Positions 6,974 to 15,493 of a stretch of DNA of 64,000 nt are shown here, piece after piece. Location: assembly GCF_002892535.1 (NCBI RefSeq), contig NZ_CP024847.1:1302001-1366000 (forward strand). The letters run 5' to 3'. This stretch comes from Aquella oligotrophica. GTDB taxonomy: Bacteria; Pseudomonadota; Gammaproteobacteria; Burkholderiales; UBA11063. The notes beneath the pieces are model-generated. The model worked only from the letters and a program-made list of their open reading frames with translations. It had not been told where the DNA came from and searched no databases. The translations under genes were made by a program, and so were the position numbers. Positions within the stretch are counted from its first letter, which is position 1. Every line of letters starts with the position of its first letter.

Positions 6974-8437
6974 TTAAACTAGCGACATACAGACATACTT
7001 GGTTTGCAGGTATTCTTCAATTCCCTGATGTCCACCTTCACGTCCGAGCCCAGACATTTTTACGCCACCAAAGGGAACATTTTCAGCAGAAATGATTCCG
7101 GTATTAACCCCAATCATCCCATATTGCAATGCTTCTGCCACATGATATATCCGTTTGATATTTTGACTAAAGAAGTAACTGGCTAAGCCATAAGGAGTAC
7201 TATTAGCAAGCTTGATAACTTCATCATCGCTATCAAAACCATAGACAGCAAGGATTGGTGCAAAAATCTCTTCTTTAAAGAGGCGTAAATTTGTAGTTTC
7301 ACAATTAATTAGTGTCGGCTGAAAAAAAAGCTCACCCAAATTTATATCTATATTGCCACCCGTAATCAACTGAGCATTGTTTGTAAGGGCATCTTCTACC
7401 AGACTTTTTGCGTGTATCACTGCTTTATTGTCGATAAGTGGACCTAGCTGAGTAGTGGCATCAAATCCATTACCTAATTTTAGTTTAGCAATCTCGATAC
7501 CTAGTTTTTCAATTACTGTATCTCTGATTGAATTATGAATGAAAATTCGGTTTGAGCAGACACAGGTTTGACCACTATTTCTAAATTTACTTTTTATGAT
7601 GCCATCAACTGCAATATCAATATCTGCATCTTCAAAAACAATTAATGGCGCATTGCCACCTAACTCCAGTGACATTTTTTTCATCGTGTTGGCGCAATTC
7701 TGATAAAGCCAAATACCAACCTCGGTCGAGCCAGTAAAAGTTAACTTACGGATAGCTGGATTTGAACAGAAAAATTCACCAATTTGCCCACTGTGTCCGT
7801 GAATAACATTTAATAGTCCAGCGGGTATGCCTGCTTTTAATCCAAGATAGGCGAGGGCATTTGCAGATAACGGAGTTTGGCTAGCTGGTTTGGCAATCAT
7901 GGCACATCCAGCTGCAACTGCTGGTGCTACTTTTCTGGCAAGCATTGCATTTGGGAAATTCCATGGAGTTATTGCGGCACAAACTCCTACTGGCTCGTAT
8001 TCTACCAGTATTTTTTGATTAGGCTGATTTGCTGGGATAGTTTCACCATAAATACGTTTTGCTTCTTCGGCATACCACTCAAAATAACTAGCTCCATAGA
8101 GAATTTCGCCTTTAGCTTCAGTTAATGGCTTTCCCTGTTCAAAAGTCAAAATTTTGGCTAAGTCATCAGCATTGGCAATGATTAACTCATACCATGTCTT
8201 GATGATTTTGCTCCGCTCTTTGGCTGTATATTTTTGCCATTCTTTCATGGCTAGTTGAGCTGAGTCAATTGCAAATAACAAATCCTCTTCAGTTGCTATA
8301 CTGATTTTGCAAATTTCTTCATTGGTTGCCGGATTAAATACCGGGAATAAATCACGGTTTGTGTTGATCCATTTACCATCGATTAATAATCCTGTTTGAA
8401 TAAGTTCAGGATTAAATAGAGTTATTTCTAGAGCCAT
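6974..8437 (-). CDS. gabD: succinate-semialdehyde dehydrogenase, NAD(P)+ dependent
   Basis: An aldehyde dehydrogenase superfamily protein of 487 residues, the usual length of GabD. It oxidises succinate semialdehyde to succinate in the GABA shunt. Motifs include [16 protein letters not shown] for cofactor binding, FTGSTEVG, the catalytic Glu in LELGGNAP and the catalytic Cys in [11 protein letters not shown]. The C-terminus [15 protein letters not shown] is typical of GabD/SSADH. The start at 8437 has a GGAG about ten bases upstream. It stands alone, with no GABA transaminase or transporter beside it, so the exact aldehyde substrate is inferred from family resemblance. Confidence 0.88.
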
Positions 8438-8577
8438 TTAATTTATACTCCATGTTTTAGATTTATCTGATATTCTAATAGTATTGTACTCCACTAAATT
8501 GGACTAACAATAGTTTTTATGATATTGCATAATTCAGGCTGGCAGAGATTTTTATAATCTTGCTTGCCACTATTCCC

Positions 8578-8609
8578 GGTGTGTTAATTTATGTATAACA
8601 CACCTTTTT
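8578..8609 (+). terminator. hairpin followed by T-run in a short intergenic transcript or leader
   Basis: A perfect 9-bp stem, GGTGTGTTA paired with TAACACACC with a 9-base loop, is followed directly by TTTTT. It is oriented as a plus-strand terminator, yet no plus-strand gene lies upstream; the gabD start region is on the other strand. It sits 14 bases before a small ORF at 8623. It could end a small RNA or act as a leader attenuator of that ORF. Confidence 0.6.
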
Positions 8610-8622
8610 AACAGGATTAATC

Positions 8623-8682
8623 ATGACAGAAATTCTTAATGTCTTATTATGTTTTGCTATTGGTTTGATGTTTTTTGGTTGA
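8623..8682 (+). CDS. possible 19-residue hydrophobic small protein
   Basis: A short ORF starting with ATG at 8623 behind an AGGA about seven bases upstream. The peptide, MTEILNVLLCFAIGLMFFG, is a single hydrophobic segment of the length and character of bacterial small membrane proteins. It directly follows a terminator-like hairpin and ends 12 bases before the convergent radical SAM gene. There is no homology that I recognise. It may equally be a chance ORF, so only the ribosome site, composition and placement support it. Confidence 0.35.
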   Translation: MTEILNVLLCFAIGLMFFG

Positions 8683-8693
8683 ACAAAATTCAT

Positions 8694-9542
8694 CTATTGA
8701 TAGTATTTGACCTTGATACCAAAACTTTCGATTCGATTTGCCATTTCAGCAAGAAAATCCAGACTAACCTGACTTATATTATCTCCTTCTGGAAGTGCTG
8801 GATTGCGGGCTGTTGAATAAATTAAAACGCCTTTAATCATCCGGTGAATATTATGAATCAGTTCAATAAAATTATCTACTTCTTCTTTTGCGGGATCAAT
8901 ATTTGCTGTTTTGAACCAACAGCTTTGTATCCACGTAGGACATATAGCTGAGGCTATTTTTAGCCGTTCCAGAATACCATCCAGATGTAAATTCACTTGG
9001 TTAACTTCCGCGATTCCATTGGTACTAACTCTGTCAATTTTAAACCATAATTCACCGTTATTTTCGGCAATGATTTTTAACCCTTCCTGGGTCGCAGTTA
9101 AATGCATTTCGCTACCATTACTAATTAGAATTGTTTTTACATCTGATCCGATTTGGTATTTTTTACGAAGTTTAGCAATAATTTGTGTAACTGCCATAAA
9201 ATCTTTGGATAATGTTGATTCGCCATTTCCCGATAGACAAATATCATTAAATCGTTGTAATCCAGCTGGTGCATGAGTAATTATAAAATCACCATGAATG
9301 ATCCACTCGAGCATCACATCTAGCTCATGTTCAAGTTTGTCAAGATCAATACTATCTGGTTTACCACGCACTAAACCCTCAACTTGACAGTAAACACAAC
9401 GCCAATTACAAGCATTATTTATGTTTAGGTTAATCCCAAGTGATACACCTTGAGCTCGCCGTGAAACAACTGGGTAAACATAGACACATTCTTTAAAATG
9501 TCGTGAATGGTCGCTAAAAGTCAATAGATTAATTTTGGTCAT
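8694..9542 (-). CDS. radical SAM protein
   Basis: A protein of 282 residues with the radical SAM iron-sulfur motif CNWRCVYC (CxxxCxxC) at about residues 46-53. It is followed by a glycine-containing GNGESTLS segment, the usual second motif that contacts SAM. The substrate is not evident, and no ThiC, NifB or tRNA-modifying signature is clear. It resembles stand-alone radical SAM proteins annotated only by the superfamily. The gene lies about 85 bases downstream of a putative sRNA and its terminator on the same strand, so it may receive read-through from the LuxR-box promoter at 9735-9780. Confidence 0.8.
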   Translation of the reverse strand: MTKINLLTFSDHSRHFKECVYVYPVVSRRAQGVSLGINLNINNACNWRCVYCQVEGLVRGKPDSIDLDKLEHELDVMLEWIIHGDFIITHAPAGLQRFNDICLSGNGESTLSKDFMAVTQIIAKLRKKYQIGSDVKTILISNGSEMHLTATQEGLKIIAENNGELWFKIDRVSTNGIAEVNQVNLHLDGILERLKIASAICPTWIQSCWFKTANIDPAKEEVDNFIELIHNIHRMIKGVLIYSTARNPALPEGDNISQVSLDFLAEMANRIESFGIKVKYYQ

Positions 9543-9627
9543 GATTATTTCTTTAAAATCGAACTACTAAATTTTAATTTCAGATGTGATTTTACTAGAT
9601 AGAAGAGTCTAGAGGGTAGCAATATAT

Positions 9628-9728
9628 AAAAAAGCCGCACCAAGAGGGATAATGGTGCGGACTAGAGGAAAAACTACTGCGTTAAAGAAGAAATAGTGGC
9701 TGCTATCTTTTTTATCCACAATAGTCAG
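9628..9728 (-). ncRNA. putative C/U-rich small regulatory RNA
   Basis: A predicted transcript of about 100 nt on the minus strand. It starts seven bases after the -10 box TAGAAT (9740-9735) and ends at a strong terminator. The terminator stem is CCGCACC paired with GGTGCGG (9635-9660), followed by CTTTTTT. No ORF of useful length lies in it. Three pyrimidine-rich tracts, TTTCTTCTTT, TTTTTCCTCT and the hairpin loop ATTATCCCTCTT, could pair with Shine-Dalgarno sequences. This resembles C/U-rich trans-acting sRNAs. A LuxR-type box lies upstream at 9766-9780. The promoter, terminator and lack of ORF are seen; the sRNA function is inferred. It might instead be a leader of the radical SAM gene. Confidence 0.55.
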
Positions 9729-9734
9729 ATGTGG

Positions 9735-9809
9735 ATTCTATCATTAAAAATAATAAGTAAAATAGTGTGTTTTTGTTCAGTTGACAGTGGCGAATATAGT
9801 TGTTATACT
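9735..9809. promoter_or_regulatory. divergent promoter pair sharing one LuxR-type box
   Basis: The box GTGTGTTTTTGTTCAG (9765-9780, plus strand) reads CTGAACAAAAACACA on the minus strand. It lies 25 bases from the minus-strand -10 TAGAAT (9740-9735). On the plus strand it abuts TTGACA (9781-9786), which is followed after exactly 17 bases by TATACT (9804-9809). That is a near-consensus sigma-70 promoter for the alpha-oxoamine synthase. One bound regulator would be centred about 44 bases upstream of both predicted transcript starts. The same box architecture recurs at six other promoters in the window. Confidence 0.7.
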
Positions 9810-9837
9810 TCTTGAAAATTTAATAAGTAGTTTCCTT

Positions 9838-11067
9838 ATGGAGGAACAAAAAATTAAAGAAGTTACATGGCAGCAAACTAAAATTCGTAATGCTGAAGAA
9901 TATCAGAATAAAATTTTTGATTCATTGAATAATCAAAGCTATGTCAGCAAAAAAGATAAACGAATTACTTTAACTAATGGAGATGAATATACTGAATTTA
10001 TCTCATGTAGTTACTTGGGGTTAGATCAAGATGTACGGATCCTTACTGCTGCATCGAGGAATCTTGAGCGAGCCGGCTTCTCTTTTTCTTCAGCAAGGAC
10101 ACGAATGAAGTATTCTGGACTTGATGAGTTAGAAAATCTTTTAAACCAGGTTTTTATGGCAAGCACAGTGTGTTTTTCAACTGTACATCTTGTTCATCTT
10201 GGGCTGATTCCATTATTAGGCTCTGGCGAAATACCTGGTTTTAAAATTAGGTCAGCCCCCCATTTTATTCTAGATAAGTATGTCCATGCATCAATTCAGA
10301 TTAATCGTGGCTTGATGACGCAATTTGGCAATGTTTCGCTAGTAGATTTTAATGAAGTTGATAGCTTGCTAAAAATTATTAAGAGTACTAGTAGTGAAGG
10401 AAATACACCGATTTTAATTTGTGATAGTGTTGGTTCTATGGGCAGTACCGCTAATATTAAGCTGCTGGTAGAGCTTATAAAACAATATGATGGCTATTTA
10501 TATCTTGATGATGCACATGGGATGTCAACATTTGGAACACATGGTAATGGTTATGCAATGATGGTTCTTGAAGATGTTCTTGATGACCGTATAATTTTAA
10601 CTACTTCACTGTCAAAAGCATTTGGTACTTACGGCGGGTTAGCCATAGTTAAAAATCCCAAGGCGGCTGAATTTATTAAAAAATTCTGTAGTACTTATAT
10701 TTTTTCAGGCTCACTGGCAACACCATTAATTGAAGCATCAATTGTTTCTGCCAAGATACATTTAAGTGAAGAAATCTATCAGCTTCAGGATGCAGTATCA
10801 GATAATTTATTATTATTTGATACGATTATAAGTCCTAACATTCGAATTATTAACCGGAATTCAGCAGTTAGTATTCGTGGATGGTATATCGGTGGTGAAT
10901 TTGAGGCAATAACGGCAGGAGAATATCTTAAAGAACATGGAATTTTGGCTACTGTTGCAACTTATCCTTCTACACCGAAACATCAAAGTTTAATAAGATT
11001 TGGCATTTGTAGTAATCATACCGAGGCGGAGATAATAAAGTTATGTACACTCATAAATCTGAAATAA
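9838..11067 (+). CDS. alpha-oxoamine synthase family PLP enzyme (candidate signal synthase)
   Basis: A fold-type I PLP enzyme of about 410 residues in the alpha-oxoamine synthase family (BioF, Kbl, HemA, CqsA). These join an amino acid and an acyl-CoA with loss of CO2. Seen: FISCSYLGLD near the N-terminus, the PLP aspartate in LYLDDAHGMSTFG, and the Schiff-base lysine in TTSLSKAFGTYGG. ATG 9838 is preferred to upstream in-frame TTG 9781, because the latter is the -35 box of a good promoter. No bio or threonine genes adjoin. The 3' end overlaps a PAS-LuxR regulator gene by 25 bases, and a LuxR-type box lies upstream. By analogy with Vibrio CqsA it may make an alpha-aminoketone signal. Product unproven. 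Confidence 0.75.
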   Translation: MEEQKIKEVTWQQTKIRNAEEYQNKIFDSLNNQSYVSKKDKRITLTNGDEYTEFISCSYLGLDQDVRILTAASRNLERAGFSFSSARTRMKYSGLDELENLLNQVFMASTVCFSTVHLVHLGLIPLLGSGEIPGFKIRSAPHFILDKYVHASIQINRGLMTQFGNVSLVDFNEVDSLLKIIKSTSSEGNTPILICDSVGSMGSTANIKLLVELIKQYDGYLYLDDAHGMSTFGTHGNGYAMMVLEDVLDDRIILTTSLSKAFGTYGGLAIVKNPKAAEFIKKFCSTYIFSGSLATPLIEASIVSAKIHLSEEIYQLQDAVSDNLLLFDTIISPNIRIINRNSAVSIRGWYIGGEFEAITAGEYLKEHGILATVATYPSTPKHQSLIRFGICSNHTEAEIIKLCTLINLK

Positions 11068-11726
11068 TAAATCATTATATCTATGTAGTTGAACACTTTT
11101 TAGGGAGTATGTATCTGAAAGATACTAATTCTAAATATATGGCAGTAAGTAATAAACTTGCTCTTGAATGTGGCTTCTCAGATCCGATTCAAATGATAGG
11201 TAAGTCAGATTATGATTTGGGGTGGGATGAATTGGCGGAGCAATTTAGAGAAAATGACTTATTTATTATCCAAAGCCAACAAAAACATGTTTCAAAATAT
11301 CTAATGCCACAACTTAATGAAGCTGGTACTTATATGATGATTAAGACTGAGAAAAGTCCAATTTTGGATGAAAAGAATAAAGTAATAGCAATATTGGGTG
11401 TATCTATGGATATTTCTCCAGATATCAGTACAATATTTGAAAATTTTGGCGATAAATTATATACTAAAGATGTAAATTTGGGATTAACTGAGCTTGAAAG
11501 TAAAATTTTTCTGCTACTGACTTTAGGAAAACCCTTGAAAGATATCGGAGAATATCTATCCAGGCAGGGGATAGTAATTGACATTGAAGCCTTAATGTAT
11601 TTAAAGCGACAAATATTCCGTAAATTAAATATTAATTCTTTAGCTGGATTAATTCAGTTTTATACAGATATGGGTGTAGATAATTTATCAAATACAATAA
11701 TTAGAAAGTTGATTGGATCATACTAA
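11043..11726 (+). CDS. PAS domain, LuxR-like HTH transcriptional regulator
   Basis: A 227-residue protein with an N-terminal PAS-like sensory domain, about residues 10-130. It contains SMYLKDTNSKYMAVSNKLA and a GKSDYDLGW turn. The C-terminal helix-turn-helix of LuxR type begins at LTELESKIFLLLTLGK and ends with KLNINSLAGLIQFY. There is no phospho-acceptor receiver domain, so it is a one-component sensor. It overlaps the alpha-oxoamine synthase gene by 25 bases, with GGAG inside that gene as ribosome site, so the two are co-transcribed and probably coupled. This suggests that it senses a product of the enzyme, as VqmA senses DPO in Vibrio. The ligand is unknown. Confidence 0.75.
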   Translation: MYTHKSEIINHYIYVVEHFLGSMYLKDTNSKYMAVSNKLALECGFSDPIQMIGKSDYDLGWDELAEQFRENDLFIIQSQQKHVSKYLMPQLNEAGTYMMIKTEKSPILDEKNKVIAILGVSMDISPDISTIFENFGDKLYTKDVNLGLTELESKIFLLLTLGKPLKDIGEYLSRQGIVIDIEALMYLKRQIFRKLNINSLAGLIQFYTDMGVDNLSNTIIRKLIGSY

Positions 11727-14671: not shown

Positions 14672-15493
14672 ATGAATAATTATAACCTTGTTTTACCAGA
14701 GGAGTACTCTTCTGCCCACCTTGACTTTATTGAATCCGTATCGCAATCAATGCAACTACTTTCTTCCCAGCTACACCTGATTTTTAGTGCCAAGGATATT
14801 CAGTCTAGGCATATTATTTCGACAGATACCTATGCTCACATAGTTGGGGTTAATTCTGTGAGTGAGGTAATTGGCAAACTGGATGCTGAATTCCCGAGCT
14901 ATATTAATAGTCGACTTCCAAATGAATTTGTAGCTCAGGATCAAATTTTGCTTAAGTCGATGGATGTCAATAAAACGATTGAAACAATAAACACTACCCA
15001 TTATGGTGATGGACTAAAAAGTAGGCGGTGCAAAAAAAGTTTATTGCATCATAAAGAGACAAACTCTATTTTAGGTATTGTTCTTACCCTACAGGAAATT
15101 GATCTGCTTGATGCCTTAAACATTCTGCCGCAATATTCTTTTAATTCTGGAATCTGGGGAATTTGTCAGACAAATAATAGTTTGGCTACTTCGTTGATTG
15201 ATAATAAATTGGAGCTACTAAATGAATACGAACGCGAAATTTGCTTTCTAATTATTCATCAATGGACGCCTAATCAGATTGCGGTATTTATGAATACATT
15301 TAGACCAGTAGATAAACCACGTACTGCTGATACGATTATAAAAAAGAGGAACTATATTTGCCAGAAGCTTGGGTTAAGGTTAAATAGTAGCTATGCCTTA
15401 TCAGAGTATTTAATGGCTACAAATCTGAGATTCCAGATTCCAGAATCATTTTATTCTAAAAATATTGGATCTAGAGCTTTCAGATTCAGTTAG
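14672..15493 (+). CDS. PAS-like, LuxR-like HTH transcriptional regulator
   Basis: A 273-residue relative of the regulators at 11043 and 22927. The N-terminal half resembles a PAS sensory domain (HLIFSAKDIQSRHIISTDTY and a GKLDAEF turn). The C-terminal half is a LuxR-type HTH: LNEYEREICFLIIHQWTPNQ followed by an insertion and ADTIIKKRNYICQKLGL. The insertion before the recognition helix is unusual, since standard LuxR domains have none. The gene has its own copy of the LuxR-type box with TATAAT 24 bases away. It is divergent from the DUF1566 lipoprotein and precedes another lipoprotein. The assignment rests on fold pattern and paralogy, not strong identity. Confidence 0.65.
   Translation: MNNYNLVLPEEYSSAHLDFIESVSQSMQLLSSQLHLIFSAKDIQSRHIISTDTYAHIVGVNSVSEVIGKLDAEFPSYINSRLPNEFVAQDQILLKSMDVNKTIETINTTHYGDGLKSRRCKKSLLHHKETNSILGIVLTLQEIDLLDALNILPQYSFNSGIWGICQTNNSLATSLIDNKLELLNEYEREICFLIIHQWTPNQIAVFMNTFRPVDKPRTADTIIKKRNYICQKLGLRLNSSYALSEYLMATNLRFQIPESFYSKNIGSRAFRFS

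Follow-up and report, generated by a model that had tools for sequence, protein, structure and literature searches.

Pyr of Klebsiella oxytoca couples phenylalanine or tyrosine to succinyl-CoA, and the resulting aminoketones give rise to pyrazine autoinducers; Pyr and its homologues yield the PALA and TALA aminoketones as well as pyrazines, and homologues from three other bacteria are also active, one of them less broadly (PMC11480411). The same paper terms the products 5-aminolevulinic acid analogues, reports that addition of pyrazine alters the K. oxytoca transcriptome, gives the order of the pyr operon as transporter, synthase and tyrosine permease, and in its accessible text names no bacterial receptor for the Pyr pyrazines (PMC11480411). 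Production of pyrazine and pyrazinone autoinducers is widespread. VqmA is a cytoplasmic receptor found in vibrios and phage VP882 (PMC8284805, PMC12802170, PMC7790227), and is said in the accessible text of two of these reports to be the sole DPO receptor known (PMC12802170, PMC7790227). The sensors CqsS and LqsS are membrane histidine kinases (PMC3376566).

Here we describe an alpha-oxoamine synthase gene that overlaps a gene for a PAS plus LuxR-like helix-turn-helix (HTH) regulator in Aquella oligotrophica P08T. This tap-water bacterium has a genome of 2,820,660 bases in a single contig. The words "quorum", "LuxR" and "autoinducer" are absent from the paper on the strain (PMC6612550).

The overlapping genes and their surroundings

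The whole stretch of DNA analysed, referred to as the window, is 64 kb long, and positions are counted from its first base. The features considered are the following, where G016 denotes the genome of a congener.

9622..9762, minus strand: possible divergent RNA, or else a leader belonging to the radical SAM gene, with a terminator-like hairpin at its end (fold z-score)
9781..9809, plus strand: TTGACA-N17-TATACT promoter, its second hexamer preceded by TG (11/12 consensus matches)
9838..11067, plus strand: alpha-oxoamine synthase P0001, 409 aa, PRK07505 family, Pyr-like subgroup (NF005697 score and trees)
11043..11067, plus strand: overlap of the synthase and regulator genes, 25 bases (ORF coordinates; 28 bases in G016)
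11043..11726, plus strand: PAS plus LuxR-like HTH regulator P0002, 227 aa, of VqmA-like build (near-cut-off PAS_4 and GerE matches, PHROG match, profile with the G016 counterpart)
14672..15493, plus strand: second regulator-like gene P0003, 273 aa, possibly related (PAS region matched by the VqmA PAS stretch, 20.4 bits)

A preliminary description of this locus had reported the 25-base overlap, a near-perfect promoter ahead of it and the lack of biotin, heme or threonine pathway neighbours, all of which were borne out: no biotin, threonine or heme genes adjoin the pair, which is flanked upstream by a divergent radical SAM gene and downstream by a convergent gene with an Lcl_C domain. Nor was a transporter gene seen beside the pair, by eye, within the 64-kb window. 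Promoters with at least 11 matches number seven in the 64 kb on both strands, and none has 12 (script, spacers of 16-18); promoter-like sites overall show no excess around the pair (10 observed, 11.3 expected). The LuxR-type box that was thought to adjoin the promoter was not recovered: none of the positions 9501-9900 begins a CTG-N10-CAG site, and the best dyad upstream of the pair (7 of 8 pairs) is equalled in 67% of 300 resampled sequences. A 428-aa version of the synthase would start at TTG 9781, which falls inside the -35 box, so the enzyme is taken to be 409 aa long from ATG 9838, or shorter; an alternative start is possible at ATT 9853, which is preceded by GGAGG (by eye).

On the other strand, the sequence at 9622-9762, a stretch chosen by eye, has a fold z-score of -4.71, and none of 200 shuffles folds as well. 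A terminator scan listed nothing there, the hairpin loop of 10 exceeding the limit of the scan, and the stretch has no Rfam match; no clear match to this upstream RNA was found elsewhere in 26 genomes, a set that took in 15 of the 22 congeners and did not include G016. P0003, which lies nearby and has no Pfam or NCBIfam match, is possibly related.

An orthologue of P0001 was found in one of the 22 congeners searched, several of whose genomes are incomplete: G016 gave a match of 52% and 421.8 bits, and the next match in another genome scored 134.9. The G016 synthase gene shares 28 bases with a PAS-LuxR gene, so the one searched congener that has the enzyme also retains the overlapping arrangement. 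The linkage of synthase and candidate receptor genes, whose loss in relatives would have counted against the preliminary description, thus extends to two species in all, with overlaps of 25 and 28 bases. The genes around the pair differ between the two, with the overlap retained; the G016 synthase lies downstream of an O-methyltransferase gene, and two further genes are found near the pair, one of them divergent and PAS-LuxR-like, the other transporter-like. Searches with a five-sequence profile recovered 2 of 399 genomes of the order at E 1e-70 (A. oligotrophica and G016), 2 of 369 genomes of the class (A. oligotrophica and the more distant G155) and 7 of 398 genomes of the phylum at E 1e-50, A. 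oligotrophica included. A first short-peptide-pattern scan of a collection of 84,980 species returned no match, and a later one yielded the G016 contig and a distant match in Clostridia. Literature searches met no overlapping pair of a synthase and a PAS-LuxR gene, which does not by itself prove absence.

GerE matches the A. oligotrophica genome in 50 places at E up to 1, and 21 of these exceed the cut-off. The ORFs that hold them are mostly about 225-315 aa long; P0002 and P0003 add to this set. Among the 30 best GerE matches of these 50 places (loci L070-L099), a co-directional overlap with the upstream ORF was seen at one of 30 loci, as judged from script-called ORFs and with one locus lacking an upstream ORF; this sample is poor in regulators whose HTH is weak, P0002 and P0003 lying outside the 50 places. 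Since PAS-LuxR-like genes are so many in the genome, chance adjacency of a synthase and a regulator is not negligible. The pair is real and rare, and probably works as a unit.

The synthase, its family and its mobile relatives

P0001 belongs to the family NF005697/PRK07505, which is also its best family (378.7 bits, cut-off 342), as does the G016 enzyme (401.1 bits). The preliminary description had called the enzyme CqsA-type, an assignment that has to be abandoned: the score against the CqsA/LqsA family NF005526 is 73.3 bits, far below the cut-off of 428, and a topology that forces six proteins of the CqsA/LqsA family into one clade with both Aquella enzymes was rejected (p-AU 1.59e-05). The trees and family models agree in placing the enzyme outside BioF and Kbl, a check that the description had proposed. 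P0001 scores 139.5 bits against BioF (TIGR00858, cut-off 426), from which its position in the tree is also separate, and 113 and 90.9 bits against the Kbl models NF005394 and TIGR01822 (cut-offs 460 and 493). Elsewhere the A. oligotrophica genome encodes Kbl, with 664.9 bits over a cut-off of 460, and a BioF-like protein that, at 311 bits, stays below the cut-off of 426; these genes adjoin ORFs resembling, by eye, Tdh and BioB.

In a tree of 38 proteins, from which G021 and G057 were omitted, P0001 is sister to the G016 enzyme (support 100/97), and this Aquella pair next joins plasmid enzymes of Enterobacter, E. coli and Klebsiella (100/96). A tree of 37 proteins, which was also made without a PatB-like protein, G152, a CqsA-like row, the BioF-like protein of A. 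oligotrophica itself and G036 and had four rows added, joined an enzyme from a phage contig to this group of six (100/99), the rest of PRK07505 consisting of enzymes from rhizobia and from clusters that contain MaoC-like genes. P0001 is 38.6% and 38.9% identical to two Klebsiella plasmid enzymes, 38.9% to that of E. coli, 40.5% to that of Enterobacter and 43.6% to the phage-contig enzyme; with identities of 38.6-40.5% to the enterobacterial enzymes, its substrate may differ from theirs. Residues H150, D224, H227, K260 and R387 of P0001, which we take from the superfamily to be the catalytic positions, are invariant in five members of the subgroup. The closest solved structure by sequence is Alb29 (PDB 8XHA and others, E 1.1e-35), with CAI-1 synthase structures further down at about E 3e-9. 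The predicted structure of P0001 (mean pLDDT 60.1) matches alpha-oxoamine synthases, Alb29 first, with TM-scores of about 0.4.

Other synthases were seen in other settings. Rhizobial synthases of the PRK07505 type (L100, L101, L104 and L105) lie directly 3' of an annotated response regulator gene in four of five annotated regions, and the two of these regulators that were scanned have an OmpR-type C-terminal domain. In L054, L055 and L057-L060 the synthases sit in biosynthetic-looking clusters with MaoC-like genes, most of which also contain CitE-like or ornithine-cyclodeaminase-like genes (all by eye); in L054 a PAS-LuxR gene is found near the synthase on the opposite strand. L056 encodes at 7051-9504 a protein of 817 aa that begins with an alpha-oxoamine synthase half (NF005697, 284 bits, below cut-off) and continues with a half that is, by eye, acyltransferase-like, with ACP-like and acyl-AMP-ligase-like genes nearby.

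A transporter, the synthase and a tyrosine permease are encoded consecutively on a K. oxytoca plasmid, as are a transporter, the synthase and an aromatic amino acid transporter on K. variicola pKP187. This gene order corresponds to the published pyr operon, and from operon content alone we infer that these Klebsiella plasmid synthases are Pyr. In E. coli, a transporter-synthase pair covering most of the query occurs in 9 of 5426 genomes, and three further genomes match over 57% only, in a region annotated as transporter; all 12 matches are on plasmids. On the E. coli plasmids (L066, 833-3171) the transporter and the P0001-like synthase genes overlap by 4 bases. One of the three partial matches is an E. 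coli plasmid of 5654 bases (L138, 3774-4889) that has mobilisation, replication and transporter genes with no synthase, and resembles immunity-only plasmids. The phage relative, encoded at 42-1259 of the IMG/VR contig L135, is a P0001-like synthase at the contig end beside a tail collar fibre gene; major head, head-closure and connector proteins are encoded further along, as for a phage-borne accessory gene. These plasmid and phage settings would fit a compound that is mobile and exported and that may be inhibitory.

The regulator and its likeness to VqmA

The preliminary description had spoken of a PAS-LuxR regulator, which held for the overall make-up of the ORF, a PAS plus a LuxR-like HTH, whereas P0002 alone does not reach the Pfam cut-offs (23.1 for PAS_4, where it scores 21.6, and 23.5 for GerE, where it scores 13.8). 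The G016 regulator is above the cut-off for PAS_4 (39.7) and below it for GerE (18.4). The two are each other's best matches: P0002 finds the synthase-linked regulator in G016 with 73.5 bits (next 60.0), and the G016 regulator finds P0002 in A. oligotrophica with 74 bits (next 41.4). This match is carried by the PAS domain (77 bits) and not by the HTH, and the G016 regulator has paralogues inside G016 that are closer to it than P0002.

A profile of P0002 and the G016 regulator retrieved VqmA structures first from the PDB (E 4.6e-13) and covers both the PAS and the HTH stretches of VqmA; 6UGL, 6KJU and 6IDE matched at about E 5e-13 and 7DWM at 9e-7, of which 6KJU, 6IDE and 7DWM are described as VqmA structures (PMC8284805). 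P0002 alone matches VqmA weakly (E 0.021). Its sole PHROG match, phrog_27555 (E 1.1e-5), also matches the VqmA of phage VP882 (327 bits) and the G016 regulator (E 4.8e-6). The predicted structure of P0002 is poor (mean pLDDT 48.2). VqmA Tyr36 aligns with P0002 Leu39 and VqmA Phe67 with P0002 Phe68; both VqmA residues presumably contact DPO.

When the PAS stretch of V. cholerae VqmA was used as the query against 35 non-VqmA proteins, a set that drew its A. oligotrophica paralogues from the 30 best GerE matches, the G016 regulator came first with 34.8 bits and P0003 second with 20.4. P0002 came fifth of the 35 with 7.5 bits, so that it does not stand nearer to VqmA than unrelated PAS regulators do. 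Other G016 PAS proteins, in a control that drew on 10 fetched G016 regions, scored 34.2 and 28.9 bits, about equal to the synthase partner, which undercuts VqmA likeness as a mark of that partner. A distinct trio of synthase-linked PAS domains, from P0002, G016 and G155, which had stood out among 35 proteins in a PAS comparison with the same 30 paralogues less L090 (497 aa), was likewise dropped after a check of G155, in which other PAS domains match the G016 PAS and the synthase-linked one is absent from the list. P0002 appears VqmA-like in build, a resemblance that stops short of establishing it as a VqmA.

Possible roles of the pair and comparison with known systems

We tentatively favour, with slightly less than even confidence, a Pyr-like aminoketone synthase that is co-expressed with a VqmA-like regulator sensing the synthase's product. 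The two overlapping genes would form one operon, and the enzyme, acting as a Pyr-like alpha-oxoamine synthase, would join an amino acid to an acyl-CoA to give an alpha-aminoketone, which could dimerise to pyrazines. In the cytoplasm, the PAS-HTH regulator would use its VqmA-like PAS domain to bind this product, or a compound derived from it, and would adjust transcription of the operon and of other genes. The product is predicted by homology to an enzyme that was identified as Pyr only by its operon, and within this reading we infer the ligand, the target genes and export as a signal. The preliminary proposal that a synthase is paired with a one-component receptor gains from two features that it had not named, sister enzymes that look Pyr-like and regulators that resemble VqmA, but VqmA likeness is common to other PAS proteins of the genus, and the transporter link on plasmids fits an antimetabolite as well.

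That is the main rival, which we consider somewhat unlikely: the synthase would make a secreted antimetabolite, for example a 5-aminolevulinic acid analogue, and the regulator would control production or tolerance, in a bacteriocin-like role other than signalling. Related synthases accompany a transporter gene on plasmids, the E. coli distribution, with its plasmid-borne pairs and transporter-only matches, resembles that of a toxin with immunity, one relative is on a phage contig, and a transporter gene lies near the pair in G016. The A. oligotrophica pair, however, has no adjoining transporter in the window, and PMC11480411, which supplies the description of Pyr products as 5-aminolevulinic acid analogues, treats them as signals, the word "antibacterial" being absent from its main text as far as accessible. 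Quite unlikely, in our view, is an enzyme of a metabolic or lipid pathway with a regulator that senses an unrelated cue (a cofactor, redox or another metabolite), the link being merely regulatory. PAS domains sense many cues, the many PAS-LuxR-like genes of the genome are mostly single among the 30 loci examined, and other PRK07505 members are found in larger clusters that look biosynthetic by eye; such a role would sit poorly with an overlap kept in G016 despite different neighbours and with a VqmA-like PAS. An alpha-hydroxyketone system of the CqsA/LqsA type with a one-component receptor would draw on the shared superfamily and the match to CAI-1 synthase structures, but is extremely improbable given the low family score and the rejected clade.

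A further-reaching form of the reading in which the Pyr-like synthase and VqmA-like regulator act together, and an unlikely one, is a complete two-gene pyrazine circuit, in which the synthase and a cytoplasmic receptor of its own, VqmA-like but occurring beyond the vibrios, would bring about direct autoinduction free of kinases. This would be the first cognate receptor for a Pyr-type product, and the divergent upstream RNA could be a target, by analogy with vqmR and VqmA. If the favoured reading is true, a synthase and a candidate receptor share one operon, perhaps as a portable signalling module; if the compound is instead a self-regulated antimetabolite, the regulator may report on an aminoketone.

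Several known systems bear comparison with this pair. Alb29 of Streptomyces albogriseolus, for which L-Glu is given as the substrate (PMC10230504, PMC11906848), is nearest to P0001 by sequence and by the fold of a middling model, with only about 25% identity in fold alignments. CqsA and LqsA are synthases of the same superfamily that likewise come with a sensor gene, but they form an enzyme clade distinct from that of P0001. Pyr would belong to the same alpha-oxoamine synthase subgroup as P0001, by way of the sister plasmid enzymes with a pyr-type operon, those of Klebsiella being 38.6-38.9% identical to P0001. VqmA has an N-terminal PAS and a C-terminal HTH, as P0002 appears to have; unlike P0002, it is encoded in an operon without a synthase, and DPO requires Tdh (PMC12802170).
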